Below, in pieces: positions 20,028 through 64,000 of a stretch of 64,000 nt of DNA; positions within the stretch are counted from its first letter, which is position 1, and the number at the start of each line of letters is the position of its first letter. The DNA lies in NCBI GenBank assembly GCA_963930775.1, contig OZ005697.1, positions 2,418,001 to 2,482,000 on the forward strand, written 5' to 3'. The DNA comes from Cliona cf. orientalis (Eukaryota; Porifera; Demospongiae; Clionaida; Clionaidae). A program made the position numbers and the translations under genes. The notes beneath the pieces are model-generated. The model was not told where the DNA came from, ran no database searches, and saw nothing but the letters and a program-made list of their open reading frames with translations.

Positions 20028-22424
20028 ATGGCGAGTGAAACAACTAAAATATTATGTCTTCTACTGTTGATAGGCATCATAAATCCTGTAAGCTGAGTAA
20101 TTGTGTATTATACCTATGAATCTGGAGAGAGCTTAAGAGAGGAGAAATGTCTAAGGATAGGAAGGGAGGGGGGAGAGAAAGTGAGAGGGAGGAGGAGAGA
20201 GACAAGAGGGCGGGGGAGAGGGAGATTTAGAGAGAGAGAGAAGCAAACATTATTAATTTAGCTAGCTACTGCAAATTCCACAGGTTCGTATTCACGGTGA
20301 CTACACTGTCCTGGTACACAGCCACTCTTTCTCCAATCCATCCAACAGATGTTTCCAGTGTCGGCTTGGATGCTGCGATCAATTTACCCTAACTAATTGC
20401 GCTGGCTCTGACAGGTGTGACACCTTGTTCACCTACTGTCTTCAGCCTATTGGTTCAAATACTCTCTGTACTCCTCAAGAAGTTAGTGAGACCGCGTTTG
20501 ATGACAGACCTATTGATTTCACTCAGGAAATGGTTCTTGGGTTACCAAACCCTCTGCCTCTCACTGGAGTATCACAGAGATGGGAGGTATAGCTATACAG
20601 TGTCATAATAATATTATCGATCTGGCATACATTGAGGTTAGTGTACTGTTGGGAGGCAATAATACTTTCATGCATACAATAATACAGCTAGACTACAGCA
20701 ATTATTAATGTAGATAGACACTGGACTATGTATAGCTAGCTATAGCAGATTTATGCAGTGTCATTAGTGATAAGTGGAGGTCACTCACAAAATCAATGTA
20801 TTAATATAGCCAGTAGGTAGCAATAGCCTTAAATTCCGCATGTGTTCAAGATCAGTCTAATACTTTAACTATCCGGTATAATATATCATCAAAATACAAA
20901 GAATCAAGTTTCAAAAGCTATTGCACACTTTGCTCCCTTACTGCAGGGTGCCGTTCTATATATAGCAGTAATAGATGACGATTCGAACACTCCAATAAAC
21001 CTTCCGAACGATCTCATAGACGATTTCATGATTACCATCAACAGCACTCTCCCAGTCAACGAAGAAACAGAAATGATACTATACTGGGGGAGAAACAATC
21101 TCACACATATCGTACTAAGTTTCCAAGTAGAGTGTGCCCCAGATTTCACAGGAGATCGCTGTGAAACTGTCATAGACGACTGCATTGGTCCTTTGAGCAA
21201 TTGCAGCGGAAACGGAGAGTGTATCGATGGAATTGGAACATTCATATGTGACTGTTTGCCAGGCTATACTGGAGAATATTGCGAAACAGACATAGATGAG
21301 TGCTTAACAATGAGTGGCAATTGTTCCAACAATGGTGTGTGCATAGATGGTATCAATAACTTCACATGTGTATGCAATCCTGGATACACTGGAAGTCTAT
21401 GTGAGGAAGATATCGATGATTGCATTGATGTCGAATGTAACAGTGGAACGTGTCAGGATAAGTTGAACGATTTCAATTGCATTTGTAATCCCGGCTTCAA
21501 AGGACAATTGTGTGAAATAGACATCGATGAATGTATCATTCACAATGTCGATTGCTCTGGACAAGGAAGATGCATTGATGGTGCTAACAACTACACTTGT
21601 GAGTGTTTCAGTGGATACACTGGTTTGGAGTGCCAGACCAACATCAATGATTGTGTAGGAGTTAACTGCAGCGGTAATAGGGTCTGCTTGGACGGTGTCA
21701 ATACCTATGACTGTGTCTGCAGTGCTGAATACTTAGGAACTAACTGCAATTTACGTACGTAGCTAAGTAATCATTCTACTATAGTATAATGCTTTTTGAT
21801 AGCTATTTATATGTGAGACGCCGCATTCCAAGTGGTCTCGTGCATGACATGTAATACATGTACCTTGTTGGACTTTCATTGATATTATTCACGTTGTTTT
21901 TTGCAGACATATCACAGCTAAAGACTATCACAATTGCTGGACCAATAGGAGGATTCTTATTTCTGTTCCTCATCTTAGTATGTCTGATATCTGTATTCTC
22001 TGTCATATTCAGACACTTTCACCAAAAGAGGAAAAGTAAGGAATAAGCATTATACTTCAAGCCTTAAAATTTTACATATACAAATATAGGAAAGGAGATA
22101 TCGTCATGGCTTAGACAGAATAGTGCACAATATGAAGCATCCACCCCATTCCTTCAAAGAGGCATGGAAGACCGACCTCGACGAAAAGAATCGAACATCT
22201 ATGCATCGATCACTCACCACGGTATTAAAGCAGCACATCGCACGGCACATCCCGACGATGTGGAGATCCACTACTGGAATGAAGATAGTCGTTTCCCTCC
22301 AATTCAACCTTTGACTGAAAGTAGCTCTATCTCAGTATTAAAACGGAGTTCTGGTGATATTGAAGAGTCCATGTACCTGAATCCACTGTACAGTGGATCT
22401 GAGAAGGAATCTGTAAGTACATAG
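20028..22424 (+). CDS. Delta-like MNNL-type domain + 5 EGF + membrane span receptor
   Basis: Five exons: 20028-20087 (signal peptide), 20284-20586, 20947-21754, 21907-22035, 22090-22424; in frame, 544 residues. It has the same N-terminal domain as its tandem paralog (HSFSNPSNRCFQC, CDTLFTYCLQ, then GAVLYIAVIDDDS), followed by five EGF repeats, most with the calcium-binding consensus D-I-D-E/D-C. A membrane span (ITIAGPIGGFLFLFLILVCL) follows. The cytoplasmic tail is longer and unrelated to that of the paralog; it ends in YLNPLYSGSEKE, an NPxY motif suited to PTB-domain binding or clathrin-mediated uptake. No DSL domain is present. Exon borders and phases match the paralog, but the EGF number and the tail differ, so both ends have evolved by exon replacement or expansion. 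Its role in Notch signalling or adhesion is unknown. Confidence 0.76.
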
Positions 22425-25124: not shown

Positions 25125-28100
25125 TCAAAGTTGTTCTAATAAGGGCTCTCTTAAATCAGCAGTGTAATGGTCACTGACTTGTGACTCTGTCACATACTGA
25201 TCTCTCGTGCTTAAATTAAGTGTGCACGCTCCCATGTTCAAATTCTTGCATGTTTCTTGTTCTGTAGAGGCAGCACGAGACCTTGTCAGCCACACTTCTG
25301 TATTCGTAGGTTTGTAATGAACTCTGGCATTCTCTATGTTGGTAGCATGATCAACTTTCTTTCTACCCATCCACTGCAGAATACTTTCACTTGCTTTCTT
25401 ATAACTCTTTATCTCACAGAGGGTGTAGTGGATATGGTACAGTAGAGTGCACACAGTCATCACAAACGTTATGCTAACTGAGATACGAATTGCTACTATC
25501 TGACCATCTGGATTGTCTGCCGAGTTGAAGCTTACTAGACTGAACAGCATGAGATTGAAGTAGTATATAGTCTCTAAATAGTCCAATAAACGTCGCTTGT
25601 AGATTCCGTCCCCTAAATATGCCTTCAAAAGCAACAGAAATGCTACTAATATCGTTATCGCGAGAAGATTAGTGCGGGGATTGCCAGACGTATTCGCCAT
25701 GACTATGATATTTAGTAGTATACGAATAAAGAGTAGCAGTCCAGTCCAGTAGCGATATTTCGGCTTGTAAGGAGCGTGATAGGCTTCCATGAAAGAATGG
25801 AGCTTAGTGTTCCTAAGCCACCGAAACATAAACTTATTAGGAGCTCGAATCAGCCACTGCCAAGCAAACAGGAGAAAAGTGTAGACAAGACCGAGAATGA
25901 GAATAAACACTGCTATGAAAAAGAGAGGAATGTGCTTGCCTTTGAAGTACTTCACACTAGCATCGGGAAGCCACACCACTTGACGCGAGCCATTGGGACA
26001 CTTCAGGACTGCAAATCCAAGTATGTCTATTACTGCTTGAAGAAGCACTGTGTACATGAGCAAGATAATGGTTGCTAAAGTGGCCACTGGATTTCTTTTT
26101 CCAACTATCCGTGCACATCTTGAAGAGTACTTGCTTAAAAGTATGATGGCCACAACCAGAGACAAGGTATAGATGGGAAACGTGAAACAATGCCACATTT
26201 TGAGATACTGATCCACTCTGTAGGGAAGGCATCTATCTATGCCAATCCTAGTATTGATGAAGTATATGAACACAGTTAAGAAATTTGGATGCAGGGACGG
26301 AAAGAAGAGACTTCTACTCATAAGGATAATGTTTGCATAAAATATCAAGCCGTTGATAGTTCCTTGAACCACCGTTACATTAAGTATTAGAAAGAGTAGG
26401 ACCATCGCTATGCCACCTAAGCATCCAAATGCCATAACAGCAATGTAGATCCCAATGGAACTCTGTGATGTGCAGTTTAGACATTGAGGGGTGGCGATGG
26501 ATAACCACAAGCCTTCCCTGCATTGTCCACACAATAAACCTGCACGATTGTATGCACACTGATCCTGAGCATAAAAGTCACTTGAATTATTCAGGCTTAT
26601 GTTGACAGTCATTGGTGGTTTACAGAAATCATAAGGACAGCTGGGATGAACAAGATAACCACAATTGTTAACGAAGCCTATCCAGGAGTTTTTCCTCTTC
26701 AGAAATGTTGCATTCTCAGAATTACACGTTGAAACATAATTATTTATATCACTGTGACATACACAATCACATCTATACTTATGATCACGTTGATTATCTT
26801 CTTGAAAGCCGACTGGGCAGTTGCATTTCTTGAAGGACACTTCTACAGTCCTATTTGATAGCCCTGCGTCCATGCATGGACTGTCATCAACATACACAAC
26901 AAGAGTTACATTCGTAGTGGTATTGGGAGAGAAGACACTGAGATTCAAGGGTGAACATATGCCTTCTACAAATTGCAGTGGCTGTCCCTTATCTAAAGTA
27001 CTAGGACCAGTTTCTGGCACTAAATAGATGCTAATGGGCATCTTTTCAGTTATACTTCTGTTGACCTGATCAACCACAGTCACATTAACGTTAAATTTCT
27101 CTCCTCTCATGACGTTTACAGTATGCCACTCATGATGACAGTCTGGTTTGTTTTCTTTACAGAAACAAACACGAAGGCTTTCGGATGCCAAGCCATCAAA
27201 TTCATCAATCGTATCAGTTACATTCTGAAAATAGATGAGTGCATGATATGGTGTAATATTCAGGCTGCTGTGGAACGTCCTCTTATATATAGTAGCCATG
27301 GGGCTCACAGTACACCTATCTAGCAATCCACCATAAAGTATTGATTCATTGTTGTTTGCCGTATTATTAATGAAAGTTATATTGCTATTGAAGGTTCCAG
27401 TATCCTCGTCATCGTGCAGTATTTGAAAGAAGCATTCAGTGTGTACATCATAATCCACATAAGATTTACTGGCACACACACTTGGGTATGTGCTATCATT
27501 AACATATATTGCTCCACCCTTGAGTTTAGCGCTATTCCCGGTAAATAACATTTCATACTGAAAATGATTACTTTCAAGGCTATACATCTTCGAGTTTATT
27601 TCAAGATAGATGCCACCACCAATTTCAGCTGCATTATCACTTACAGTTAGTCGGCCAAAGCTGATTTTCGATGACTGTGTGAGCCAATCATCAGTGCCAT
27701 CCCGTAGCACTATCACAGATTCGACTGCACTAATTGCACCACCTGCATGTGATGCAGTATTGTTTGTGAAATTGCACTCAGCAAAACAGAACACACGAGA
27801 AGCATAGAAAAAGGCTCCACCGCCATTCATTTTAGCTTGATTTCCAGCCACAATTAAACTACCATAAAAGGTTATAAAGGTTTCTGAAATGTACATGGCA
27901 CCACCAGACTTATCGGAATGATTATCTAAAAATGATACAGTTCCACTTAAGACTGCTGTACTCTGAATAATGGTAAGAGTTCCTTGAGCTCGATAGTTCT
28001 CTGCTTGTGAAAAATTATCAAATTTCTGTCTGCAGTTCTCAAATAAAACTGTTCCATTGAAGTCTATGCCGCTGTTTCTTACTAAAAAAGATCCAGAATT

Positions 28101-29063
28101 GTTTGAATACTTAACTTCACCAATAATATTAGAAGATGTTTTCACAAGATAAATTATGCTAAGAGTCCCAACGTTTTCAGATATTGTAGTGTTTTCAATT
28201 GAAACACTGCTCTGTGAAGCACAAAACGTACACTCCCAAGCAGAATTATTTATAAATTCGCTATTAACAATGGATACTTGTGAGTCCTTGGTACTCACTA
28301 TTAGCCCTCCACTATTGTTTCTTACAATGCTACTCTCCAACTTGACATTGCTGTCTAACACCTTAATTAGGGCTGGATGGTCTTCATGCTCGGTAACGGT
28401 GCTATTACAGAAAGTGGTGGAAGTGATATTTATCTCACTTTTGTTTTCAACATGTATCATTTTACCACTTAGAGTGACAAACTTGCTATTCACAAGTACA
28501 AGAATCGTTTCAGAAATAACAATCATGGGATCACTGTATATAGAGTCATTGTTCACGGATGTAAAAGTACAGTTTTTAACAGTTGCATTGGTGCTACTGA
28601 AGTTAAGCATTGTTTGCCAGTCAGCTTCAAGGGGACTGGTAAAAATACAGTTGTCAATTGTAATGTTCAATGATTTGGCTCTGATCCTCTGGCAACCAAT
28701 AATATTCAGTCTCAAAGGAGTAGCACTGCCACAGTGCCAGGATCCTTCACCACTACTGTTGATGAGCTTGTATTTCTCAGCATCTTGTAGAGTAAAATTA
28801 TTTGAACAGGTTAATGTCAGTTTAGGTGCCGAATTATCAGTGCTAGCTATAGTCCACTGAACATTATCAGAATCAAAATCAGTATCGGATTCATCTACAT
28901 ACCGTTGTATGGTGAATCCAATTGAAGAGTTGCTGCATATATTGACGTTGCATGCCTTTACTACACAGAATATGAATGCCAAACCTTGCAAAATTCTATG
29001 TAGTTGACACATTACAGCCATAATCAGAAAACGTCGTTTCATTCTCCTGCAACTTGTGTACAC
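25125..29063 (-). CDS. Secreted-end beta-helix protein with C-terminal multi-span membrane domain (copy 1)
   Basis: Uninterrupted frame of 1312 codons. The start shared with the second copy is the ATG at 29021 (MAVMCQLHRILQGLAFIFC, a signal peptide); the 14 codons before it are probably not used. Residues about 70-560 carry Asn-rich parallel beta-helix turns with recurring G-G-A/G-A/I-x-Y/F motifs (SGGAMYISE, GGGAFFYASR, AGGAISAVES, GGGIYLEINS, KGGAIYVNDS) and many N-glycosylation sites, as in PbH1/pectin-lyase-like folds. A Cys-rich linker follows (CNCPVGFQ, CDCVCHSD, AGLLCGQCREGLWL). The last ~420 residues hold about nine or ten hydrophobic spans starting at SSIGIYIAVMAFGCLGG, then a short cytoplasmic tail. 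I do not recognise a named family. The layout resembles an adhesion-type receptor or a channel with a beta-helix ectodomain, but no known signature motif was seen. Confidence 0.85.
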   Translation of the reverse strand: MYTSCRRMKRRFLIMAVMCQLHRILQGLAFIFCVVKACNVNICSNSSIGFTIQRYVDESDTDFDSDNVQWTIASTDNSAPKLTLTCSNNFTLQDAEKYKLINSSGEGSWHCGSATPLRLNIIGCQRIRAKSLNITIDNCIFTSPLEADWQTMLNFSSTNATVKNCTFTSVNNDSIYSDPMIVISETILVLVNSKFVTLSGKMIHVENKSEINITSTTFCNSTVTEHEDHPALIKVLDSNVKLESSIVRNNSGGLIVSTKDSQVSIVNSEFINNSAWECTFCASQSSVSIENTTISENVGTLSIIYLVKTSSNIIGEVKYSNNSGSFLVRNSGIDFNGTVLFENCRQKFDNFSQAENYRAQGTLTIIQSTAVLSGTVSFLDNHSDKSGGAMYISETFITFYGSLIVAGNQAKMNGGGAFFYASRVFCFAECNFTNNTASHAGGAISAVESVIVLRDGTDDWLTQSSKISFGRLTVSDNAAEIGGGIYLEINSKMYSLESNHFQYEMLFTGNSAKLKGGAIYVNDSTYPSVCASKSYVDYDVHTECFFQILHDDEDTGTFNSNITFINNTANNNESILYGGLLDRCTVSPMATIYKRTFHSSLNITPYHALIYFQNVTDTIDEFDGLASESLRVCFCKENKPDCHHEWHTVNVMRGEKFNVNVTVVDQVNRSITEKMPISIYLVPETGPSTLDKGQPLQFVEGICSPLNLSVFSPNTTTNVTLVVYVDDSPCMDAGLSNRTVEVSFKKCNCPVGFQEDNQRDHKYRCDCVCHSDINNYVSTCNSENATFLKRKNSWIGFVNNCGYLVHPSCPYDFCKPPMTVNISLNNSSDFYAQDQCAYNRAGLLCGQCREGLWLSIATPQCLNCTSQSSIGIYIAVMAFGCLGGIAMVLLFLILNVTVVQGTINGLIFYANIILMSRSLFFPSLHPNFLTVFIYFINTRIGIDRCLPYRVDQYLKMWHCFTFPIYTLSLVVAIILLSKYSSRCARIVGKRNPVATLATIILLMYTVLLQAVIDILGFAVLKCPNGSRQVVWLPDASVKYFKGKHIPLFFIAVFILILGLVYTFLLFAWQWLIRAPNKFMFRWLRNTKLHSFMEAYHAPYKPKYRYWTGLLLFIRILLNIIVMANTSGNPRTNLLAITILVAFLLLLKAYLGDGIYKRRLLDYLETIYYFNLMLFSLVSFNSADNPDGQIVAIRISVSITFVMTVCTLLYHIHYTLCEIKSYKKASESILQWMGRKKVDHATNIENARVHYKPTNTEVWLTRSRAASTEQETCKNLNMGACTLNLSTRDQYVTESQVSDHYTADLREPLLEQL

Positions 29064-29455
29064 ATTAATGCCAGATTAGCTCTAAGACTTTGATGGTTCA
29101 ACAAGAACTTCATTTATGGTTGCTTTCCCAAATCCCAATAGGTGGTCCCATATGATATACATGAAGTGAAAGATCAACTTTACATCAGTAGTCATATGCG
29201 TTGCATGGCACATGCTTCAACAGTTGCATGCAGAAAAGGGGTAGCTATAAAGGGCTGGGGCCGGGGCGAGACAGGGATGAAGCTAATGTTTAATATACTT
29301 GCACAGCAGTGTTATTCAAGGTTCAATGGCTCATAGCAGCAACAATCCTAGTGTGTTGTATCGAACTCCATGCTGTGGTGTCGACATCAACTCAACTTCC
29401 CTCATTGGGTCATTAGATGTTTACGTGAAAGTAGGAAAATTGCCATGATTCTATC

Positions 29456-34600: not shown

Positions 34601-35577
34601 GAATTGTTATTTTCAAAGATTATTTCACTGCTTCTTACTAAAAATGATCCATTATTATTTGAATACTTAACTCCACCAGCAACATGAGAAACTGTTTTCA
34701 CAAGGTAAATTACACTGAAGTTCCCAACGTTTTCCGATATCGTAGTATTTTCAATTGATATGTTGCTCTGTGAAGCACAAAACGTACACTCCCAAGCAAA
34801 ATTGTTTAAAAATACGCTATTAATAATGGATACGTGTGAGTCTTTGGTACTCACTATTAGCCCTCCACTATTGTTTTTTACAATGCTACTCTCCAACTTG
34901 ATGTTGCTGCCTAACACCTTAATCAGGGCTGGATGGTCACCATGCTTAGTGACGGTGCTATCACAGAAAGTGGTGCAAGTGATATTTATCTCACTTTTGT
35001 TTTCAACATGTATCATTTTACCACTTAGAGTGACAAACTTGCTATTCACAAGTACAAGAATCGTTTCAGAAATAACAATCATGGGATCACTGTAGTTAGA
35101 ATCACTGTTCACAGATGCAAAAGTACAGTTTTTAACTGTTGCATTGGTGCTACTGAAATTAAGCATTGTTTGCCAGTCAGCTTCAAGGGGTCTGATAAAA
35201 ACACAGTTGTCAATTGTAATGTTCAACGACTTGGCCTTGACCCTCTGGCAACCAATAATGTTCAGTCTCAAAGGCGTAGCACTGCCACAGTGCCAGGATC
35301 CTTCACCACTACTGTTGATGAGCTTGTGTTTCTCAGCATCTTGTAGAGTAAAATTATTTGAACAGATTAATGTCAGTTTAGGTGCCGAATTATCAGTGCT
35401 AGCTATAGTCCACTGAACATTATCAGAATCAAAATCAGTATCGGATTCATCTACATACCGTTGTATGGTGAATCCAATTGAAGAGTTGCTGCATATATTG
35501 ACATTGCATGCCTTTACTACACAGAATATGAATGCCAAACCTTGTAAAATTCTATGCAGTTGACACATTAGAGCCAT
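31684..35577 (-). CDS. Beta-helix ectodomain, multi-span membrane protein (copy 2)
   Basis: Uninterrupted 1297-codon frame, near-identical to the protein at 25125-29063 through signal peptide, Cys-rich linker, membrane region and tail. The start is MALMCQLHRILQGLAFIF; a stop codon lies in frame just upstream, confirming this start and indicating the matching internal ATG for copy 1. Differences concentrate in the beta-helix part: copy 1 has FRVRN-like turns rewritten here (for example GSFLVRSSEIIFENNNSFEY in place of GSFLVRNSGIDFNGTVLFEN) and small indels such as SDWPQSKSSG against DDWLTQSSKISFG, whereas the membrane spans are almost unchanged. This suggests that the exposed helix region is evolving faster than the membrane core. 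The frame stays open after duplication, so the copy is probably functional. Product function unknown. Confidence 0.87.
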   Translation of the reverse strand: MALMCQLHRILQGLAFIFCVVKACNVNICSNSSIGFTIQRYVDESDTDFDSDNVQWTIASTDNSAPKLTLICSNNFTLQDAEKHKLINSSGEGSWHCGSATPLRLNIIGCQRVKAKSLNITIDNCVFIRPLEADWQTMLNFSSTNATVKNCTFASVNSDSNYSDPMIVISETILVLVNSKFVTLSGKMIHVENKSEINITCTTFCDSTVTKHGDHPALIKVLGSNIKLESSIVKNNSGGLIVSTKDSHVSIINSVFLNNFAWECTFCASQSNISIENTTISENVGNFSVIYLVKTVSHVAGGVKYSNNNGSFLVRSSEIIFENNNSFEYCEQNLIFDNISQIENYRAQGTLTAIRSTLILYGITKFFDNHSDKSGGAMYISESIMIVDGDLIVVGNRADKSGGGAFFYASRVFCSAECNFTNNTASHAGGAISAVDSLIMLRDGSDWPQSKSSGLLHVIDNAAHIGGGIYLEINSKIYGLESNHFHYEILFAGNNAELKGGAIYVNDSTYPSVCASKSYADYDVHTECFFQILHDDEDIGIFNSSISFNGNTANNNESILYGGLLDRCTVSPMATIYNRIFHSSQNITPCHALTYFQNVTDTIDDFDSFASESLRVCFCKENKPDCHHEWPTVNVMRGEEFNINVTVVDQVNKSITEKMPISIYFVPETGPSTLDKGQQLQFVEGICSPLNLSVFSPNTTTNVTLVVYVDDSPCMDAGLSNRTVEVYFKKCNCPIGFQEDNQRDHKYRCDCVCHSDINDYVSMCNPENATFLKKKNSWIGFVNNSGYLVHPSCPYDFCKPPMTVNISLNNSSDFYAQDQCAYNRAGLLCGQCREGLWLSAATPNCLNCTSQSSVGTYIAVVVCGCIGGIAMVLFFLMFNVTVVQGTINGLIFYANIVLMSRSLFFPSLHPNFLTVFIYFINTRIGIDRCLPYRVDEYLKVWHCFTFPIYTLSLVVAIILLSKYSSRCARIVGKRNPVATLATIILLIYTVLLQAVTDILAFAVLKYPNGSHQVVWLSDASVKYFKGKHIPLFFVAVFILIIGLVYTFLLFAWQWLIRAPNKFMFRWLRNTKLHSFMEAYHAPYKPKYRYWTGLLLFIRILLNIIVMANTSGNPRTNLLAIAILVAFLFLLKAYLGDGIYKRRLLDYLETTYYFNLMVFSLVSFNSADNPNGQIVAIRISVSITFVMTVCTLLYHIHYTLCEIKNYKKASESILQWMSRKKVDHATNIWENARVHFKPTNTEVWLTRSRAASAEQEMCKNSNMGACTLNLSMRDQYATESQVSDHYTADLREPLLEQL

Positions 35578-44811: not shown

Positions 44812-46625
44812 ATGGAGTTGATGCTACTTTTAGTTTTACTGATAGGCATCAATCTTACTGGAAGGCAAGGAGTGGAGGGTAATGCAAGGGGAGCGCCTGA
44901 AGAAGCTTGTGTTGATTTGCAACCAAATCAAACTGCTCATGGATCCCCACAGGAAACTACAGTGCCCTATGGCGTTAATATGTCACAATTTCACAATAAT
45001 TCCATAACTGGATATGTATACACTCCAGGGAGAGATTACGTCTGTAAGTTCAACGGTATATAGCTAGTTGCTAGCTAAAAGTTAATGCTACTGCATGAAC
45101 TCATAATAATTTTGTGATATTGTATGATAGTGACATTTTCAAGCAATGCTGAGGGGCAGCAGCAAGAGTTATTCCGAGGGCTGCTGATTCAGTCGAGGTT
45201 GGTGGCAGATGACACATCTCCTGTTGGAGTGTTTAGGTTGTTAGAAAGAAGAGGAAATGCCAGGCGCAGCTTTTGCTCTCCTAGGAATGTAAGTTCCCTG
45301 TTTTTGTCTATGAAAGTGGTGTGGTTGCTTCCATCCATGAGAACTGATTTTTGATAGAAATTATTACAGTAACTGCTTTCCACAGGTCATTGTATTGTGT
45401 CATGCTTTGCCTCAACAATGTTTTCTTAAAATTTATTAAACTTTACAGATTGCAATCACTCATAGGAATGAAAATTCCAAATCCTCCATTTCATTTCGAT
45501 GGACTGCACCGCCACTGGGCACTGGACCAATCAGATTCAGGTATTTTTTTGTGTACATTGGATTATGCAGTAATGGAGACTACTTTGTGGCCTGGGTGTC
45601 ATAGATTTGCAGTTGTTCAAGAAAAATATATACATTGGGCAAATCAACAATCTGAAATCATCCAAGAGTTAGGTAAAATTAATGCATGACATTGAATAAC
45701 TAATCGTATTCACAAGACTTGGTTTATAGTGCTCTGATCATGAATGGTTTAGTATGTAACAATAGCATTAGTACTTGTAATAATTATTCTGTCACAGGAA
45801 ACATGGAAACCTTTACCTCTACTCAGGAACCAATGGCAAGTAGCACAGTTACTCCTACTCCTACTAGTCCTACCACCACAGAGTCTACCACTGCGTCTAC
45901 TACTATTACTACTACCGATTCAGAAGTCAGTATTATACTCCCAGCAAGTACTTCCGAAGCATTGGACCAGGTTACTCCTACGGTAGAAAGTACTGAGACT
46001 ATGCTTGACAGCACAGTAGCAACTTCTACTCCTGAGTCCACCGCAATGGGAGGTACAACAGCCACTAGTACTAATAGTATGCCTGAGGGAACCGCAATCA
46101 TTTCGACTCTTTCAGAGTCAACAACACTGGGAGGTACAACAGCCACTAACGCCAATGTTGAAGCCACCACTAATGGCATGACTGAGAGAATGGAAACAAC
46201 TTCTACTCCTTCAGAGTCATCCACAGTTGGAGTTGGTACAACTACTAGTACTGATGATGAAGCCACAACAATGGAGGTCTCAAGTGCAATGGTTCCTGAG
46301 ACGACAGCTGATAGTGTAAGCCAAATTTCTACTCATCAAACTGTCACTAATGTGAGGATCCTATTTAGGTTCAAACTCAAGGTCAAACTCCAGGCTCTGT
46401 AGCTCCCAATTCAGTGACCATGGCACTAGCTGCGCGTGCTGATGACACTCCCACGCAACATAGCAGGGCCAATACATGTGCTCATTCAGGTATAATAATA
46501 TTATTATTATTATTAACTCATTTTAAAGTTGACAATCATGCGAGCCAACCTCTACTGCAGGTGTTGGGATGTTGATGCTCATCTTTGCAATAATATTATT
46601 TCTGACTGTTGCAGATTTTAACTGA
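44812..46625 (+). CDS. Reeler-domain, mucin-stalk surface protein
   Basis: Seven exons: 44812-45043, 45131-45288, 45449-45540, 45605-45672, 45798-46315, 46369-46489, 46561-46625; in frame, 417 residues. A signal peptide (MELMLLLVLLIGINLTG) precedes a Reeler domain: ACVDLQPNQTAHGSPQ, PY, GYVYTPGRDYVLTF, LFRGLLIQSR, SFCSPRNIAITH, ISFRWTAPPLGTGPIRFRF, YIHWANQQSEIIQE. Exon 5 encodes a Thr/Ser-rich mucin-like stalk of about 170 residues with TTTSTTAT-type repeats (TSTPESTAMGGTTATSTN and similar). The last exon is a hydrophobic end GMLMLIFAIILFLTVADFN with only three residues after it, so GPI anchoring or tail anchoring is likely. Reeler domains occur in insect immune defence proteins, spondins and ferric reductases. 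The next gene is the somatomedin-B receptor on the same strand. Confidence 0.78.
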
Positions 46626-47200
46626 ATACTGTAGCTATAGCTACCTGCAATCTGATCTTAAAATTAATTTGTATTGTGCTTCAAAATTAGTCTAAGCTTA
46701 GCATGTTAATATGAAGTCAATAGGAAAGAAAAATTTAATGACAGCTAGCTCCCATAATTACTTTTTAATAAGAAAAATGCCCACACAAAAAGACCACCTT
46801 GATAATTGGAGTGAGTCCCACAGACTTCTATGACACGATTCTGTAGCAATAGTCTTATGGGAATGAATATCTGTATACAACCTTACATGTTTGTTTAAAC
46901 AATATGCTCATATGACCTGCAAAACAAGCAGTGTATGGTAAATTTTACTAACCTAAAACACTAAACATGCCGTGTTTGTGCTAATAGAACGCAAGCAAAA
47001 AACGATTAAATTTTTTAATTTTCGCGCGATTTCCTGGTAAAGGTCGTCATACACTAATATTTTACATGTACATTAAGATACATTATTAGAACGCGAATTT
47101 TCTTGCGCTAATAATTACGTTTTATAACACGGTACTCGATCTCACTATAATATTATTCTGAGATTGCAAGGCCTGATGCTACAGAATTAAGGTGATAGCT
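46626..47200. other. Intergenic, Reeler / somatomedin-B genes
   Basis: 0.57 kb AT-rich spacer. GAACGCAAGCAAAAAACG at about 46987 and the inverted TCTTGCGCTAATAATTACG at about 47101 suggest an old short inverted-repeat element, but the match is weak. No gene supported. Confidence 0.4.
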
Positions 47201-48150
47201 ATGAAGATTCTTCAAGCAATGTTGATTACAATTTACTGCTGCAGGCACACACAAGGTACATAACAATGCATGCATGCTTAATAATAATTATTATTGAGCT
47301 CTGATTCATAATAATGATCCGTGTAGGTCAGGGATCATGTGTAGCTGCAGGCTACTTTGACTGTTGTCGTGATTTTATTGATGCCCCTAATGGCACTATC
47401 TTTTCATCTCTTACTTGTCAAGACCCGGTAGAGGGTGGTAGCTGCTTCTGCGATTTTGCATGCCATAGGTTCTTGGATTGCTGTGAAGATATCGATCGCA
47501 TTTGTCCAAGTAAAGTTATAATAGCTATTAATCCCCGTGCATATGGTCTATGATACATGCATAATAATAGATTCAACATGCGCAAGTGCTGGCTATTCAA
47601 GCTGCTGCACAAATAGAAGCTGTAAAACTAGTGGAGGATGCTACTGTGATTTTCATTGTCACTCTGTGGGTGACTGCTGCCCGGATATTTCAGAGACATG
47701 TCCCACCTGGTAAATAATACCTTGCCATTAGACTATAGCAAGGATATCTTTTGTTAATTTTCTATTATTATCAGGAATGAATCTGATCACAATGATCTTG
47801 AAACACAACTTACTTCAAGGCCACAGTTAGTAGCTATAACAATGATTACTGGTAATGAGATTAAGAAGCTAAGTCATCCAGGAATGGTTGGTACCAGAGA
47901 ACTGACATCGTGGATTCTGGTGGCTGTATTATTGAGTATGTTGATCACTGTTATCACTGTGATGGCTATCAAGACAATTTACACGAGGAAAAAGACTGCC
48001 AGCAGGGATATCGATCAACCTGACATTTCTCAAGATTGTAAGATGGAGGGAAACCCATGTTATGAAACTGTTGCACTCCGACAAACCACCGCAAGTGTGC
48101 ATCAAGCACATGTTCATGACTATCAGGAAATACGACAGCCAATTAGCTAG
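47201..48150 (+). CDS. Double somatomedin-B receptor with MEGNPCYE tail
   Basis: Four exons: 47201-47255, 47327-47509, 47571-47709, 47775-48150; in frame, 250 residues. After a signal peptide come two Cys-rich modules with the somatomedin-B layout: SCVAAGYFDCCRD ... CFCDFACHRFLDCCEDI and TCASAGYSSCCTNRSC ... GCYCDFHCHSVGDCCPDI, one per exon. A membrane span (WILVAVLLSMLITVITVMA) is followed by a basic stop-transfer and a tail with CKMEGNPCYETVALRQTT and HDYQEIRQP. The NPCY is an NPxY motif. The tail block matches the tail of the receptor family at 56.7-64 kb (MEGNPCYEATAVKQTT), while the ectodomains are unrelated. SMB modules usually mediate protein-protein contacts outside the cell. The ligand is unknown. 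Confidence 0.8.
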
Positions 48151-56721: not shown

Positions 56722-58016
56722 ATGAAGATACTGATTTTTATCATAATAGTTATCACTGAACTAAGCTGGACTAGAAAAGGTACATTCATACATACTGTGG
56801 CAAAGTGTATGTTATCTAGTGCAAGTCTAATAACTCTGCTACTCCACAGTATCCTCCAGTTCATGTCAGGTGTACCCATCAGAGTATGCCTATCGTGATG
56901 ACTCTGTCACCAGAGCTGAGAGTCCTAACGCCACCTGTAGGAGGTATCCAGTCGTTCCTGCTTCCCAGGAACGCTACATTCACTGTGATGGCATACAACT
57001 TAAACTGACGGATGATAACCTTGGACAAGAGCAATACCAGACCAGTGACTACTATATTATATGGCCTGCTGGTCATGATGAGCAGCTGCTATTTATATTC
57101 CCCATAAGAGTCTCCTTGACTACCATCACACTGCACTACTACAGTGACAGTGTCCGAGGCCTTCCCAGACTGAGATTCTATGCTGTACCAGATGACTTTA
57201 ATGTCTGGGATGCACCAACTGCAGGCACTCCATATGTAGGTATTGATTCAGTCCCATCAGATAGAGAGCCAGCAGGTAACAGGAATGTCAGTATCAGTGT
57301 TATTTTCAACACAAAGAAAGTGCTGATGTATAAGTATTCCAGCACTACAGTGCTTGCAGTGAGTGAAGTATTCTTCACTAGAGCTAGTAAGAGATGTACA
57401 TAAACATAGCTGTTCCTAGTCTTGAGACTAGCTATACTCCACTGCAGCCACCACCCCATTGCTATGTGGCCCCACTACTGATCCAGAGATAAGCAAAGAA
57501 ACTACCGTGATAAAATGTATGTTATAGATATTCAAAGATAATTTCATAGCATAGTTAAAATTACTAACCCTTGTTGATAATAGATTCACTTGGCACTACA
57601 CTCAAACAAATATCATCAAGTAAGTAATGACGTACGGTTGCTAATCACTATTTATCTAATTGTATAACACAGATCCAATGAGTGAAGACTCAGTCACTGA
57701 AGCAACAACTTTAGTAGCGAATGAAATGCCAATAAATGATTTAAAAGCCATAAGTACATGTACGTGTGACTCATCAGTATCTCTCAGAGAAATACTAGCG
57801 TGGGTTCTGGTGGTGATACTGGGAGTCCTGTTCACAGGGTTACTCAGTGTTGTACTGCTGTGGATGTTTAAGAAGAGACAGGCCAGAGATACAAGTACTG
57901 ATAACACTACTCCAAAGTATGAAATGGAGGGCAACCCTTGCTATGAAGCCACTGCAATCAAACAGACCACTGACACACACCTCTATGAAGCAGTCAGAGG
58001 GGGAGGGGCCAAGTGA
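56722..58016 (+). CDS. Array receptor 1: discoidin-like ectodomain, NPxY tail
   Basis: Exons 56722-56779, 56850-57386 and 57673-58016 join in frame to 312 residues; all junctions are phase 1. A candidate stalk exon near 57448 (TTPLLCGPTT) would break the phase with the donor I can see, so it is left out. Signal peptide MKILIFIIIVITELSWTR. The ectodomain starts CQVYPSEYAYRDDSV, has a variable loop RRYPVVPASQERYIHCDG, then a beta-rich core (LLFIFPIRVSLTTITLHYYS, LPRLRFYAVPDDFNVWDA, FNTKKVLMYKYSS, AVSEVFF). The final VSEVxFF strand resembles the closing strand of galactose-binding/discoidin folds, but I do not recognise a named domain. A membrane span (ILAWVLVVILGVLFTGLLSV) and a tail with YEMEGNPCYEATAIKQTT and LYEAVRGGGAK follow. 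It is the first of five tandem copies. Confidence 0.78.
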
Positions 58017-58314
58017 ACATACATAATGACATAGAAACAGTAACTGGTATAATATGTACACACAGTTACATCAACCAGTAGCTTACACTAAGTATTATTG
58101 ACTGCTTGCATACATAAATGATAGCAGAGCAGTATTTTGATTGTGAGTGAGGTTGACACAACTATGGGGTAGATAAATAGATATTCATTAATTTGTTGTT
58201 CTGTATGCAATTATACCCAGAGTAAACAATAACAATGAAAGTGCACACACTTAAATGCACGCATCAGCTAAATATTCCATAAAATTGAAACCTTAAACTA
58301 TAGTAAGATTGACT
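58017..58314. promoter_or_regulatory. Upstream region of array receptor 2
   Basis: Contains GAGGTTGACACA (about 58149) and CCCAGAGTAAACAATAACAATG (about 58217), which recur at nearly the same distance before receptors 3 and 4. These may be promoter elements or simply unmutated duplicated DNA. Confidence 0.45.
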
Positions 58315-59592
58315 ATGACACTGCAGTTCTGTCTAGCATTCATTACAGTACTGTTAACTCTTCTCACCTGGACTAGGAAAAGTACGTATGTTATAATATT
58401 ATGCTTTCTATTAAATTAAGTGCAACAATCCACTACTCCACAGCATCCTCCAGTTCATGTCAGGTGTACCCATCAGAGTATGCCTATCGTGATGACTCTG
58501 TTGCCAGAGCTGAGAGTGCCAGTGCCAACTGTAGCAGCTATCCACCTCGAGAAGACTACATCCACTGTGATGGAACACAACTTAAACTGGCTGATTCCAA
58601 TATTGGACAAGAGCCGTACAGGAGCAGTGATTATTATCAGTGGAGTGCTGGGAGTGCTGGGAAATTGTTGTTCATATTCCCCACAAACATCTCCTTGACT
58701 ACCATCACACTGCACTACTACAGTGACAGTGTCCGAGGCCGTCCCAGACTGAGATTCTATGCTGTACCAGATGACTTTGATATCTGGGATGCACTAACTT
58801 CAGATCCTACATATGTAGGTATTGGTTCAGTCCCAGCAGGTGGAGAGTCAGCAGGTCGCAGGAGTGTCCACATCGGTGTCAATTTCAACACTAGCAAAGT
58901 ACTAATGTACAAGTTTAGTAGTCGTTTCCGGTTAGCAGTGAGTGAAGTGGAGTTCTTCAAATTATGTGCGAGTACAAGTACAAGTAAGTATCTGTATACT
59001 GATTGTTGTATTCTGCCTTCCTATAATGATTTGAGACTGCTGAATATGTACAGTGGATGAAATCACTACAATGACAACAATGGCAAAAACATCTTCCAAA
59101 CGAGATACAAGTGAGTTAATTCACTGCACGTCTGTCTGAAACTGAATAATTATTGTACTGGTCACTATAATAGCAGATTGTACCAGTGTAATAACAGAAA
59201 CCGGTAAGTAAATAACCTCACTTAAGAGCTAAGTAGTTATCTTTTAATCTACTTCCACACATGCAGCTACATTGTCCACTCAAGAGAACACTACCAAAGA
59301 AACAACAGAGGAATGGCAAATTACACAAATAAAGTCAAGCACTAAACTATCAGTGTCTCCCAGTGAAGTTGTAGCGTGGGTTCTGGTGGTGATACTGGCA
59401 GTCCTGTTCACAGGGCTACTCAGTGTTGTACTGCTGTGGATGTTTAAGAAGAGACAGGCCAGAGATACAAGTACTGACAACACTACTCCAAAGTATGAAA
59501 TGGAGGGCAACCCTTGCTATGAAGCCACTGCAGTCAAACAGACCACTGACACACACCTCTATGAAGAAGTCAGAGGGGGAGGGGCCAAGTGA
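58315..59592 (+). CDS. Array receptor 2: discoidin-like ectodomain, two stalk exons, NPxY tail
   Basis: Exons 58315-58381, 58444-58983, 59054-59110, 59177-59203 and 59267-59592 join in frame to 338 residues; every internal junction is phase 1. Exons 3 and 4 (57 and 27 bp) encode a short Thr-rich stalk (MDEITTMTTMAKTSSKRD, NCTSVITETG). The ectodomain is homologous to receptor 1, with loop SSYPPREDYIHCDG, the shortest of the set. The membrane span and tail (EVVAWVLVVILAVLFTGLLS, YEMEGNPCYEATAVKQTT, LYEEVRGGGAK) are nearly identical to the other members. It is probably a type I plasma-membrane receptor. No enzymatic motif was seen. Confidence 0.82.
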
Positions 59593-59983
59593 AGAAAGAT
59601 AGAGATATAAACCTTACCGTATGCAAGAACAATTCAAGATAACATTTAGACTAAGTGCATTCACAGCATAGTTTTTGTACAGCACATACATGAATAGAAT
59701 AATGATGCAAGATAAATAACTACACCATCATACATACATTAACTAGTTAGTGATAGCAGTATACTATCACCAATGTGTCATCAATTAATTTTTAAAATAG
59801 CTATGCAGTGTTTTGACAGTAAGGGAGGTTGACACAGGCAGGCTCTCTACACAGTGATGAGTTGTTATTCTTTATTTATCCAGAGTAAACAATAGCAATG
59901 GTAGAGGAACATACTTGGTTATGCTTAAGCTAAGTACTAGTACAGCACACAAATAAACAGTTTGTGGTGAGGCATAAACGATC
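59593..59983. promoter_or_regulatory. Upstream region of array receptor 3
   Basis: Contains GAGGTTGACACAGG (about 59825) and CCAGAGTAAACAATAGCAATG (about 59879), the same blocks as before receptors 2 and 4, about 159 and 105 bp before the ATG. Otherwise AT-rich spacer. Confidence 0.45.
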
Positions 59984-61307
59984 ATGAAGCCGTGGTTCTG
60001 TCCAGCACTAAATTTTGCTATAGTATTCTACACTTTGATCAGTTGGAGTACAATAAGTATGTTAACTGCACAACTTCTATATATCAGTAATTAAATTAGC
60101 CTTAAGCCCCACTACTCCACAGCATCCTCCAGTTCATGTCGGGTGTACCCATCAGAGTATGCCTATCGTGATGACTCTGTCACCAGAGCTGAGAGTGCCA
60201 GTGCCAACTGTAGGAGGTATCCACCCGATCATCTTCAAGCAGGTGGGCATCAAGAAGATTATATCCATTGTGATGGAACACAACTCAAACTGACTGATTT
60301 CAACCTTGGACAAAAGCAGTACACCAGTAGCGACTATTATGTGTGGACTACTGGGAGTGCTGATCAACTGCTGTTCATATTCCCCACAAGAGTCTCCTTG
60401 ACTACCATCACACTGCACTACTATGGTGACAGTGTCCGAGGCCTTCCCAGACTGAGATTCTATGCTGTACCAGATGACTTTGATGTCTGGAATGCACTAG
60501 CTACAAGCACCCCACGTGTAGATGTTTTTTCAGTCCCATCAGGTGGAGAGCCAGCTGGTCGCAGGAGTGTCAGCATCAATGTCAACTTCAACACAAAGAA
60601 GGTACTGATGTACAAATTTAGTAGCAGTTTCTCATTTGCAGTGAGTGAAGCGGTGTTCTTCAATTGTTTTGTAAGTACAAGTACAAGTAAGTATCTGTAC
60701 GCTGTTTGCCCTTCCTATATGACTTAAGACTGTTGAATATGTACAGCGGCTGGGATCACTATCACGACAACTATGGCAGATACTCCTTCTATAGGAGAAT
60801 ATTATGTCAACAGTGAGTCAATTCCACTAAATACTATACATATACTTTATGCATGACGGCATATTGTACCTGCATGGTCCAGCAAAACAACCAGTCACAA
60901 TAATAGCATTAATTTTACTAAGTAAAATTATGCCATTTTAGGCTCAGCTCTCTTGTAATGCACTTCCACATATACATGTAGCTACATTGTCAATTCAAAA
61001 GAACACCACCAAAGGAACAACCGAGGAGCGACAATTCACACAAATAAAATCAAACATTAGACTATCAGTGTCTCCCAGTGAAGTTGTAGCGTGGGTTCTG
61101 GTGGTGATACTGGCAGTCCTGTTCACAGGGCTACTCAGTGTTGTACTGCTGTGGATGTTTAAGAAGAGACAGGCCAGAGATACAAGTACTGACAGCACTA
61201 CTCCAAAGTATGAAATGGAGGGCAACCCTTGCTATGAAGCCACTGCAGTCAAACAGACCACTGACACACACCTCTATGAAGCAGTCAGAGGGGGAGGGGC
61301 TAAGTGA
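59984..61307 (+). CDS. Array receptor 3: discoidin-like ectodomain, one stalk exon, NPxY tail
   Basis: Exons 59984-60056, 60123-60686, 60747-60812 and 60982-61307 join in frame to 342 residues; all junctions phase 1. One stalk exon (AGITITTTMADTPSIGEYY). The variable loop is RRYPPDHLQAGGHQEDYIHC, longer than in receptors 1 and 2. The signal peptide MKPWFCPALNFAIVFYTLIS is unlike the others. The core, membrane span and tail (MEGNPCYEATAVKQTT, HLYEAVRGGGAK) match the array consensus almost letter for letter, including at the DNA level. It lacks the 27-33-bp stalk micro-exon present in receptors 2 and 4. Confidence 0.82.
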
Positions 61308-61644
61308 ACATACACAATGACATAATATTATAGAAACATGCAGCGACTGATATAATATGTACACAGTTACATCAATTAGTAGCTTATACTAGGATTAGCC
61401 TTTATGTAATAATTTATTGACTACTTGCATACTTGTATGAAAGCAGGGCAGTGTTTTGACTGCGAGGGAGGTTGACACAGCCATGCATGTGGTGCTGGGA
61501 CAAACAGATAATTTGTTGTTCTGCATGCAATTACCCAGAGTAAACGATAACTATGAAAGTGCACATGCACGCTTTTTAATGCATGTATCAGCTAAGTATT
61601 CTGCAAATTGGGGAGAAAAAAATAATCTATGTTAAAGGTTGGCT
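61308..61644. promoter_or_regulatory. Upstream region of array receptor 4
   Basis: Contains GAGGTTGACACA (about 61468) and CCCAGAGTAAACGATAACTATG (about 61533), the shared blocks of the array, about 177 and 111 bp before the ATG. Confidence 0.45.
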
Positions 61645-63328
61645 ATGACACTGCGGTTCTGTCTAGCATTCATTGCAGTACTCTTCACTTTTTTCAGTTG
61701 GGCTAGGAAAAGTATGTCATAATTTTTAGTTGTTAGATTGAGCAAATTAAAGTGAAACAATCCACTGCTCCCCAGTATCCTCCAGTCCATGTCAGGTGTG
61801 CCCATCAGAGTATGCCTATCATGATAGCTCAGTCTACAGAACTGAGAGTTACAGTGCCGACTGTAGGAGCTATCCATATGGTAACCATCCAGGAGGTGTG
61901 CACCCAAATGACTACATCCATTGTGATGGCAAGCAACTCAAACTGACTGATTCCAATATTGGACAAGAGCAGTACAGGAGCAGTGACTATTATGTGTGGC
62001 CTGCTGGTAGTGATGGACGACTGCTGTTCATATTCCCCACAAGAGTCTCCTCGACTAATATCACACTGCACTACTACAGTGACAGTGTCCGAGGCCGTCC
62101 CAGACTGAGATTCTATGATGTACCAGATGACTTTGATATCTGGGATGCACTAACTTCAGGTAATCCATATGTAGGTGTTGCTTTAGTTCCACCAGGTGGA
62201 GAGCCAGCAGGTCACAGGAGTGTCAGCATCATTATCAATACCAACTTCAACACAAAGAAAGTGCTGCTATACAAATTTAGTAGCAGTTTCCTGTTTGCAG
62301 TGAGTGAAGTGTAGAATTCATTGAAATAATATGTGCAAGTACAAGTAAGTATCTGTACGCTGATTGCTGTATTCTAGTGGCGTAGCCAGGGGGCTCAGGG
62401 GGCTCGAGCATGCACCCCCTTCTGCTCTTGGACTAGTTGACATGATCCATAGAACAGCCTCATCCCAGCACCTCCTTAGCTACTCCAAACCGTCATCTAC
62501 TACAAAATATAGCTTAGAAAAGAGTTAGACACTTATCTTATTCAAACATTTGGCCGAAAATCTTGAGCCAGCTCGCTAGCTATGTTCAGAATGCGTTCTC
62601 TGTGACAATTTGAACTTCGACCTTACCAGTTAATTAGTGGGCATGGCCTAAAATTTTGCACACGCGCTTTGCGCGCATAGTCCAGCACCCCCTTACCTAA
62701 ATTCCTGGCTACGCCCCTGTATTCTACCTTCCTATCTTATTATGACTTGAGACTATTGAACTTGTATAGCGGCTGGGATCACTACCACAACAACAATGGT
62801 AGATACACCTTCCAAAAGAGATACAAGTAAGTTAATTCCACTACACACGTCTGTCTGAAATTGAATAATATTTATGTTACTGGTCACCATAACAGCAGAT
62901 CATACAAGCATAACAACACCAATAGCATTTGGTAAATAAACAACCTCACTTAAGAGCTAAGTAGTTATCCTTCAATCTACTTCCACACAGCTACATTGTC
63001 CACCAAAGAGAACACCACCGAAGAAACAACAGAGGAGCGACAAATTACACAAATAAAGTCAAACACTAAACTATCAGTGTCTCCCAGTGAAGTTGTAGCG
63101 TGGGTTCTGGTGGTGATACTGGGGGTCCTGTTCACAGGGCTACTCAGTGTTGTACTGCTGCGGATGTTTAAGAAGAGACAGGCCAGAGATACAAGTACTG
63201 ACAACACTACTCCAAAGTATGAAATGGAGGGCAACCCTTGCTATGAGCTACTGCAGTCAAACAGACCACTGACACACACCAGTCAGAGGGGGAGGAGCCA
63301 AGTGGAAAGAAACAGACCAAAAGCATGA
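61645..63328 (+). pseudogene. Array receptor 4: nonsense and frameshift, transposon in intron
   Basis: Exon-equivalents 61645-61711, 61776-62344, 62770-62826, 62899-62931 and 62991-63328. The ectodomain reads normally (ISSSPCQVCPSEYAYHDSSV, variable loop RSYPYGNHPGGVHPNDYIHC) until its last strand, where the GTGGAG of relatives is GTGTAG, a stop at 62312-62314; the remaining bases to the donor are also out of frame. In the tail exon a one-base loss after CCTTGCTATGA replaces the normal NPCYEATAVKQ reading with a frameshifted end (YELLQSNRPLTHT). A hAT-like element (62377-62718) sits in the following intron. It may still yield a soluble truncated ectodomain of about 200 residues; as a membrane receptor it is broken. 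Confidence 0.82.
62377..62718. mobile_element. hAT-like non-autonomous element, copy 2, with 8-bp target duplication
   Basis: Begins GTGGCGTAGCCAGGGGGCTC and ends CTGGCTACGCCCCT. It is flanked on both sides by GTATTCTA (62369-62376 and 62719-62726), an 8-bp target duplication typical of hAT elements. It is homologous in inverse orientation to 39981-40323 and inserted in an intron of array receptor 4. Confidence 0.9.
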
Positions 63329-63577
63329 TGTGTGCTTAATCCTACATTCAATTTACTTAACATTTACATTAACTATATAGTTTATTAAAGATAACTAGCT
63401 AGTACATACATCGTTGCATATTTAGCAATAGCTAATAGTTATATTTCCCTTTGTGTAACAAATGTACTCTATGATAGTTGTAGTGTTTCGTAGATGTGAG
63501 AGGAAACCATGCATGCACTATACAAACTGAATCATATTCTTGCATGAGCTGTTCAAAGTAAAATGTGAAGAATAGAT
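63329..63577. other. Spacer before array receptor 5
   Basis: 249 bp AT-rich spacer. The GAGGTTGACACA and CCAGAGTAAAC blocks seen before receptors 2-4 are not present here. Confidence 0.4.
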
Positions 63578-64000
63578 ATGAAGATGCTGTTGTATTCAGT
63601 AATTTCAGTAGCATTCTTTATGATGCTCATTTGGAATAGAACAGGTACCCATATTATTTTATACTATAGCACTGTATTATTATACCGCAATATTAAACTC
63701 CACAGTATCCTCCAGTTCATGTCAGGTGTACCCATCAGAGTATGCCTATAGAAATGACTCTGTTGTGAGAATCGAGAGTGCCAGTGCCAACTGTAGGAGC
63801 TATCCAGCTGGTCGTGAGGCACCGCCAGGAGTGCACACAGACCACTATACACATTGTGATGGAAATCAAGCTAAGCTGAATGACTCTGACATTGGACAAG
63901 AGCAGTATCATCCTTCTGATTACTATGTGTGGAATGACGAAAGAGATTGGCAGCTGCTGTTCATATTCCCCACAAGAGTCTCCTTGACTACCATCACACT
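63578..64000 (+). CDS. Array receptor 5 (partial, cut by window end)
   Basis: Exon 1 63578-63644 (signal peptide MKMLLYSVISVAFFMMLI) and exon 2 from 63706, open to the window edge. The phase-1 junction and the start VSSSSCQVYPSEYAYRNDSV are as in the other members. The variable loop RSYPAGREAPPGVHTDHYTH is the most divergent, with YTHCDGNQ in place of YIHCDGTQ, and the following part (NDERDWQLLFIFPTRVSLTT) also differs. It shows that the array continues beyond 64 kb. Confidence 0.85.

Follow-up and report, generated by a model that had tools for sequence, protein, structure and literature searches.

In mammals, receptors of the KIR/LILR type are paired receptors. Other systems, too, invite comparison with the genes studied here. 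In CD300A and CD300C, gene conversion preserves the similarity of the ectodomains despite divergent signalling tails (PMC12447643). For invertebrates, a recent review that names sponges among the models calls the mechanisms of allorecognition a mystery (PMC12065747). Hydractinia has 40 Alr and Alr-like genes on one chromosome in two clusters, some of them possible pseudogenes (PMC11876637), and Alr has been reported with immunoreceptor tyrosine-based activation and inhibition motifs (ITAM and ITIM; PMC12065747), while the tails of Botryllus FcoR have a YxxI/L/V core motif, with an ITIM or hemITAM in members (PMC12065747). Here we describe a receptor family of the sponge Cliona cf. orientalis, met first as an array of five genes at the end of a 64,000-nucleotide stretch of chromosome 9 (contig OZ005697.1, positions 2,418,001 to 2,482,000; hereafter the window). 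The nearest described logic is that of the mammalian paired receptors, and it is fairly probable that the family is a repertoire of single-pass recognition receptors, diversified in the germline and with an organisation like that of paired immune receptors. No description of it was found among the titles and abstract openings listed by searches of open-licence PubMed Central papers.

Like CD300A/C, the sponge family has a common ectodomain on different signalling tails, and the likeness of its ectodomains seems to be maintained by conversion (PMC12447643). In contrast to CD300A/C, the sponge ectodomain has no immunoglobulin (Ig) or other Pfam match and is present in about 49 copies in three clusters, the low synonymous divergence (dS) spares a loop of variable length (V1) and the C-terminal strands, no tail of the ITAM-adaptor type was seen, and opposed signalling is putative. 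The likeness to Hydractinia Alr lies in a receptor family on one chromosome with possible pseudogenes included (PMC11876637); however, the Alr genes are described as unusual members of the Ig superfamily, whereas the sponge ectodomain has no Ig match, and a role in fusion and rejection is established for Alr, whereas for the sponge family it would be putative. Tyrosine tails of the YxxI/L/V type are shared with Botryllus FcoR (PMC12065747), but the FcoR ectodomains are built from Ig and sushi domains, every FcoR being expressed together with a fester gene that lies next to it, while in the sponge one pool of ectodomains stands on two tails. Aggregation factors and SRCR expansions are likewise expanded recognition families in sponges, but the present ectodomain matches no SRCR or other Pfam domain.

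The array consists of five plus-strand genes from window position 56722 to about 64903, copy 5 running past the edge at 64000. Each gene follows one plan, from a hydrophobic, signal-peptide-like leader in exon 1 through an ectodomain exon, a Thr-rich stalk and one membrane span to a tail with MEGNPCYE. The ectodomain is about 175 residues long and probably beta-rich. When the genome (216.79 Mb in 149 contigs) was searched by tblastn with the ectodomain of copy 3, 57 of the 58 pieces lay on chromosome 9, with E down to 1e-121, and chance origin of the repeats is thereby excluded; the single piece elsewhere is a weak fragment on contig C2 (E 7e-5). Altogether about 49 ectodomain-exon loci were found in three clusters on chromosome 9, a lower bound with weak single fragments excluded from the count. 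They comprise 33 full-length exons in the DNA read (32 open ones and copy 4), 13 further loci that are broken or partial, and three known as tblastn hits alone (one open, two with a stop). Cluster I holds 14 of the full-length exons (1.43-1.50 Mb), cluster II 13 (1.71-1.78 Mb) and cluster III six, namely the five array copies, copy 4 among them, and a lone copy at 2.5407 Mb. The initial observation was thus confirmed, and the family is larger than first counted. Contamination or bacterial origin was rejected, as the genes have introns and sit inside the chromosome; pattern-prefiltered scans for relatives of the ectodomain confirmed none among 22 pattern matches in prokaryote genomes and 111 in viral contigs. 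One gene of cluster I, with ectodomain and tail (1471457-1472522, plus strand), differs in strand from the cluster's remaining full-length members. The lone copy (2539844-2541201) is followed on the same strand by a frame with an Ig domain (PF00047, E 3e-6), and the two could possibly form an ectodomain-Ig gene.

The tails fall into two classes. Clusters I and III have short tails with NPCYE plus YxxPhi, and cluster II has long tails unrelated to the short ones, of 158-312 residues after the transmembrane (TM) segment and with 5-8 YxxPhi. When the 1.6 kb lying downstream of each of the 33 ectodomains were surveyed on the same strand, a short-tail frame was found after 12 of the 14 ectodomains of cluster I and after all five array copies, and a long-tail frame after 12 of the 13 of cluster II, one of these (135 residues) being truncated where the stretch read ends. 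The thirteenth copy of cluster II is followed by two frames that overlap each other and are related to the long tail, and neither class was found within that distance of the lone copy. No ectodomain in the survey had the tail class of the other cluster, the one exception being a 35-residue chance match of a loose pattern next to copy 5, a gene with a short tail of its own. Where found, the tails follow the cluster without exception and the ectodomain variants do not. As in paired receptors, homologous ectodomains are thus found on different tails in linked genes (clusters I and III versus II), with joins inferred from position. The original prediction had put the constancy of the system in its tail, which is not supported, because tails differ between clusters and that of cluster II is unrelated.

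The two classes also differ in their motifs. In the short tail, NPCYE is followed 14-18 residues on by a second tyrosine, usually as H-x-Y-E-x-[VLI]. We compared 29 short-tail frames with a profile E <1e-20, a set that includes genes at 2.54-2.59 Mb and at 48 kb of the window without this ectodomain and leaves out the shifted tail of copy 4 and weaker matches. Each has one NPxY and one or two YxxPhi, and the ITIM consensus was found in 0 of the 29. The cytoplasmic part of 13 long-tail frames of more than 200 residues has 5-8 YxxPhi each, often as [DE]-[LM]-Y-x-x-[VI], together with PPxP in 12 of 13 and the ITIM consensus in 7 of 13.

Related tails occur also apart from this ectodomain. At 45704-48147 of the window, a TM exon carrying the NPCYE tail module comes after a Ser/Thr-rich, mucin-like frame, and at 2.54-2.59 Mb of chromosome 9 further frames, on the minus strand, combine the NPCYE tail with Thr-rich stalks. 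Small Cys-rich frames are found near the latter, where some copies look recently duplicated or broken. Away from the clusters, a 727-residue frame on contig C14 (922543-923124) has repeats resembling the tyrosine/proline tail of cluster II.

Within the ectodomain exon, divergence is distributed very unevenly. Codon and identity comparison delimits a homogenised core at consensus residues 84-119 (60386..60493, plus strand, in copy 3), and the stretch 60382-60500 of copy 3 (119 bases) has 40 matches, its own among them, that all fall on chromosome 9 and are 89-100% identical. In 32 copies taken together (without copy 4, codon bootstrap), dS and nonsynonymous divergence (dN) were 0.24/0.13 at residues 1-31, 1.21/0.37 at 32-70, 0.34/0.21 at 71-83, 0.10/0.07 in the core, 0.15/0.31 at 120-145 and 1.31/0.18 at 146-175. 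Accordingly, dS differs more than tenfold between segments of one exon of about 530 bases, by which a uniform duplication history is rejected. In 15-codon windows over 33 copies, dS dips to 0.04 at the core, and its profile is nearly unchanged in pairs of cluster I versus cluster II, whose tails are unrelated. Fourfold-site diversity is 0.07 at residues 84-145 (38 codons) versus 0.42 at 32-73 and 146-175 (16 codons; Mann-Whitney P 4e-7), and 0.17 at residues 1-31. Codon bias was ruled out as the cause of the low-dS core, as nearby Thr codons are fixed differently by position (ACT, ACC and ACA at Thr 89, 90 and 92).

Signs of exchange between loci were found along with this profile. The pairwise homoplasy index (PHI) was 0.756 versus 0.795 (standard deviation 0.009) in permuted alignments, below all 500 permutations, and exact identical runs between clusters reach 130 nucleotides. 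Broken copies have a core as similar to that of copy 3 as full-length ones (mean identity 93.4% in nine broken and 93.9% in 28 full-length copies; three of the 40 matches are not part of this comparison, copy 3's own and the two at 1748227 and 1751652). Since dS is low between clusters and in broken copies, frequent interlocus gene conversion is indicated and would be the simplest account of the core. An ectodomain likeness kept by gene conversion, the other mark of paired receptors, is thus seen in the dS profile within and between clusters, in the PHI test and in the broken copies. Core and tail had both been predicted to be homogenised; this is borne out for the ectodomain core, across all clusters, but not for the tail.

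Two patches of the ectodomain vary. The first, V1, follows C-R-x-Y-P, is 4 to 13 residues long in the window copies and is flanked by two cysteines invariant in 33 of 33 copies, which probably form a disulphide. According to the alignment, the plus-strand loops are VVPASQER in copy 1 (56951..56974), PRED in copy 2 (58545..58556), PDHLQAGGHQED in copy 3 (60224..60259), YGNHPGGVHPND in copy 4 (61877..61912) and AGREAPPGVHTDH in copy 5 (63807..63845), so that every one of the five loops first quoted is found, each flanked by C-(R/S)-x-Y-P and Y-(I/T)-H-C-D-G. Grouping region 32-70 at a distance cut of 0.30 gives three types with several members each and leaves three sequences single; one type joins one member of cluster II with four of cluster I, another has 14 members from all three clusters, and the third six members of II with five of I. 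Nearest neighbours did not track cluster in segments 1-31 (P 0.08), 32-70 (P 0.17) and 71-145 (P 0.27). The second patch, V2 (consensus residues 120-145; 60494..60571, plus strand, in copy 3), has a dN/dS of about 2 (2.06 over 32 copies), with dN<=dS in 0 of 2000 codon bootstraps (P<1/2000). A tree-free count gave 117 nonsynonymous versus 25 synonymous changes (P <=4e-4, uncorrected for the seven regions), and the P values are optimistic because V2 and the other regions were chosen after the profile was seen. The idea of a variable loop on a homogenised framework stands in that V1 varies and its types cross clusters, but dN>dS in the loop itself was tested and found unsupported.

The ectodomain resembles no described family that we could find. 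Pfam gave no family match for three window ectodomains and then for 16 of the 33 full-length members, apart from two chance families (E 0.09 and 1.2), and no SRCR match in the 16; nor did a sequence test detect an Ig profile in these, though the neighbouring Ig exon was detected. Searches of PDB by phmmer and by profile found nothing significant, the best match (MHC class I, E 0.5) being taken as chance. This agrees with the claim of an unrecognised domain. The same domain had also been called discoidin-like. It shares with F5/8 type C (discoidin) domains a similar length and terminal cysteines, one at the N-terminus and, in most copies, another just past the last strand, and EVEFF near the end also resembles the discoidin pattern. 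It differs from them in that Pfam gave no match and a profile comparison with factor VIII C2 none either (hhalign probability 0.05, a weak test with a single-sequence template), and a genome scan with PF00754 gave no match at E<=1e-6 among nine candidates scored, although exon splitting may hide such domains. Two AlphaFold2 models, made from window sequences only, reached a predicted local distance difference test score (pLDDT) of 38.5 and 31.9, unusable for a fold, so the suggested comparison of predicted structure with F5/8C allows no claim of fold. With the pLDDT 38.5 model, Foldseek returned 0 matches at E<=0.001; among the best 50 of 1266 non-significant matches are the jelly rolls of DDR1, Eph, CBM and APC10, which from so poor a model is a hint only. 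The discoidin-like label is therefore unproven.

Taken together, a recognition-receptor cluster is the best-supported functional class, and we regard it as probable. The product of an intact gene would begin with a signal peptide and the ectodomain (about 175 residues), continue through a Thr-rich stalk to a single membrane span, and end in a tail with tyrosine motifs. Interlocus gene conversion would keep the ectodomain framework common and shuffle loop variants between short-tail and long-tail receptors, the predicted logic being one ectodomain pool on two signalling tails. Similar ligands could then trigger two kinds of phosphotyrosine signalling, one through NPxY/YxxPhi and the other through multiple YxxPhi with ITIM-like and PPxP motifs. 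V1 and V2 would be the likely ligand-contact surface, which supplies a structural hypothesis. If this is true, an early-branching animal also evolved the paired-receptor organisation with ectodomain gene conversion that mammals are known to have, on an ectodomain that no library recognises. The immune-type receptor cluster first proposed is supported by the tandem array, broken members, variable loop and homogenised framework, and strengthened by the approximately 49 loci, the two tails, the conversion signature and the patch with dN>dS, but not in its constant tail or by any dN>dS in V1.

Several observations weigh against this reading. Nearest neighbours of the C-terminal segment belong to the same cluster in 22 of 33 cases (P 0.0015), and the whole exon is weakly cluster-structured (19 of 33, P 0.016). 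The C-terminal segment pairs high dS with strong amino-acid constraint, so high dS alone is not a marker of a recognition loop. In region 32-70, which contains V1, dN/dS is 0.31 with dS near saturation, and selection for diversity is therefore seen at V2 only. No clear cytoplasmic ITAM in the tails examined marks an activating class. The open exons 1455220 and 1493649 of cluster I lack an intact tail and have a short interrupted TM frame downstream; an open exon thus does not imply an intact gene. Outside the window, the exon joins were placed by position, and all evidence comes from one haploid assembly. An alternate haplotype (GCA_963930685.1) and RNA reads (ERR13669944) are listed for the Cliona cf. 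orientalis assembly (PMC12639293).

What the receptors would recognise can be read in more than one way. Cliona cf. orientalis lives in symbiosis with algae. A congener is the subject of PMC4144087. It is possible, if tentative, that the family is lectin-like or pattern-binding and senses bacteria or the algal symbionts; the many copies, the broken members and the dN>dS patch speak for this. Carbohydrate-binding jelly rolls are common among the best 50 of the 1266 non-significant fold matches, which is not evidence by itself. The models did not resolve the fold of the ectodomain, which weighs against this reading.

Alternatively, the genes could be allorecognition receptors, the clusters forming a sponge histocompatibility complex in which V1 and V2 would tell self from non-self tissue where grafts meet. 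The architecture parallels Hydractinia Alr (PMC11876637) and the tails of Botryllus FcoR (PMC12065747), and sponge grafts show specific, repeatable recognition that is taken to imply a polymorphic genetic system (PMC5450542). However, pathogen sensors would be just as likely to form a large clustered family, and the ectodomain has no Ig match. We consider allorecognition unlikely as matters stand. It is rather doubtful that the clusters are the receptor side of a sponge histocompatibility system in its fullest form, that is, an undescribed ectodomain family whose variants are gene-converted between NPxY and multi-tyrosine tails as a paired-receptor repertoire independent of the Ig superfamily. 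The three clusters on chromosome 9 provide a concrete, mapped candidate.

Two explanations do without recognition or conversion, and both are improbable. In one, the low-dS core reflects constraint at the level of DNA or RNA (an overlapping element, an antisense frame or a recombination signal). Core third positions are nearly fixed over 33 copies and long antisense frames lie opposite the core in several of them, but the same core is found in broken copies, PHI gives a significant result, some pairs share long exact runs, and the sense codons could have produced the antisense frames as a by-product. Neutral birth-and-death of ordinary tandem duplicates of an adhesion receptor fits the tails being alike within a cluster, and tandem arrays with broken copies are common, but it is already disfavoured, since duplication alone would give a uniform dS along the exon, variants cross tail classes, and dN exceeds dS at residues 120-145.

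Returning to the recognition-receptor array in the window, all five predicted same-strand copies were found, with ectodomain exons starting at 56850, 58444, 60123, 61776 and 63706. The conserved blocks start 1594, 1679, 1653 and 1930 bases apart, so of the predicted spacing of 1.3-1.9 kb the upper end holds and the actual range is 1.6-1.9 kb. Leader, Thr-rich stalk, membrane span and MEGNPCYE are all present as described, the tail of copy 5 having been read beyond base 64000 in the next 10 kb, and the further reading that had been called for to size the array places its end at copy 5, with no tblastn match before the lone copy. The exon joins that were checked are phase 1 with GT-AG boundaries, as read from the sequence; zero to two small Thr-rich stalk exons occur per gene, the last exon comprises TM and tail, and the ectodomain exon is 537-564 nucleotides in the four open copies (1, 2, 3 and 5).

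Copy 1 (56722..58017), with GT-AG, phase 1 joins, has exon 1 at 56722-56779, the ectodomain at 56850-57386 and TM and tail at 57673-58017, a separate stalk exon not being needed. In copy 2 (58315..59593) these lie at 58315-58381, 58444-58983 and 59267-59593, with two small Thr-rich stalk exons recognised by eye, and in copy 3 (59984..61308) at 59984-60056, 60123-60686 and 60982-61308, with one stalk exon by eye at about 60747-60812. Copy 5 (63578..64000 and on to about 64903) has exon 1 at 63578-63644, the ectodomain at 63706-64257 and a divergent TM and tail at 64518-64903. Copy 4 (61645..63305) is broken, as had been predicted of members of the cluster: its ectodomain exon is out of frame at 569 nucleotides, not a multiple of 3, with an early stop after VSEV, and the tail shifts frame after NPCYE. 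Its following intron holds an insertion of about 340 bases (62377-62716) with imperfect terminal inverted repeats (GTGGCGTAGCCAGG...) and TGTATTCTA flanking both sides, which looks like a small non-autonomous DNA transposon.

Pairwise DNA identity in the array is 79-85% for the ectodomain exons, 47-74% for intron 1 and 43-81% for the DNA between exon 2 and the tail exon, which takes in the stalk exons and in which the pair of copies 2 and 4 is highest; 16 of the 20 intron comparisons are at most 65% identical (43-65%). The near-constant tail that had been described holds for copies 2-4, whose tail exons are 93-96% identical, but less so for copy 1 (81-83% to the others) and copy 5 (63-68%).

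Elsewhere in the window, two EGF-repeat receptor-like stretches lie at 17288-22421, and nearby downstream frames have tails with tyrosine motifs, one of them NPLYS. On the minus strand, an open frame of 1316 residues (25128-29075) has Chlam_PMP/beta-helix repeats followed by hydrophobic stretches. Antisense-looking frames similar to it are found on the plus strand at 28153-28857 and 34709-35413, which suggests a second, degraded copy.

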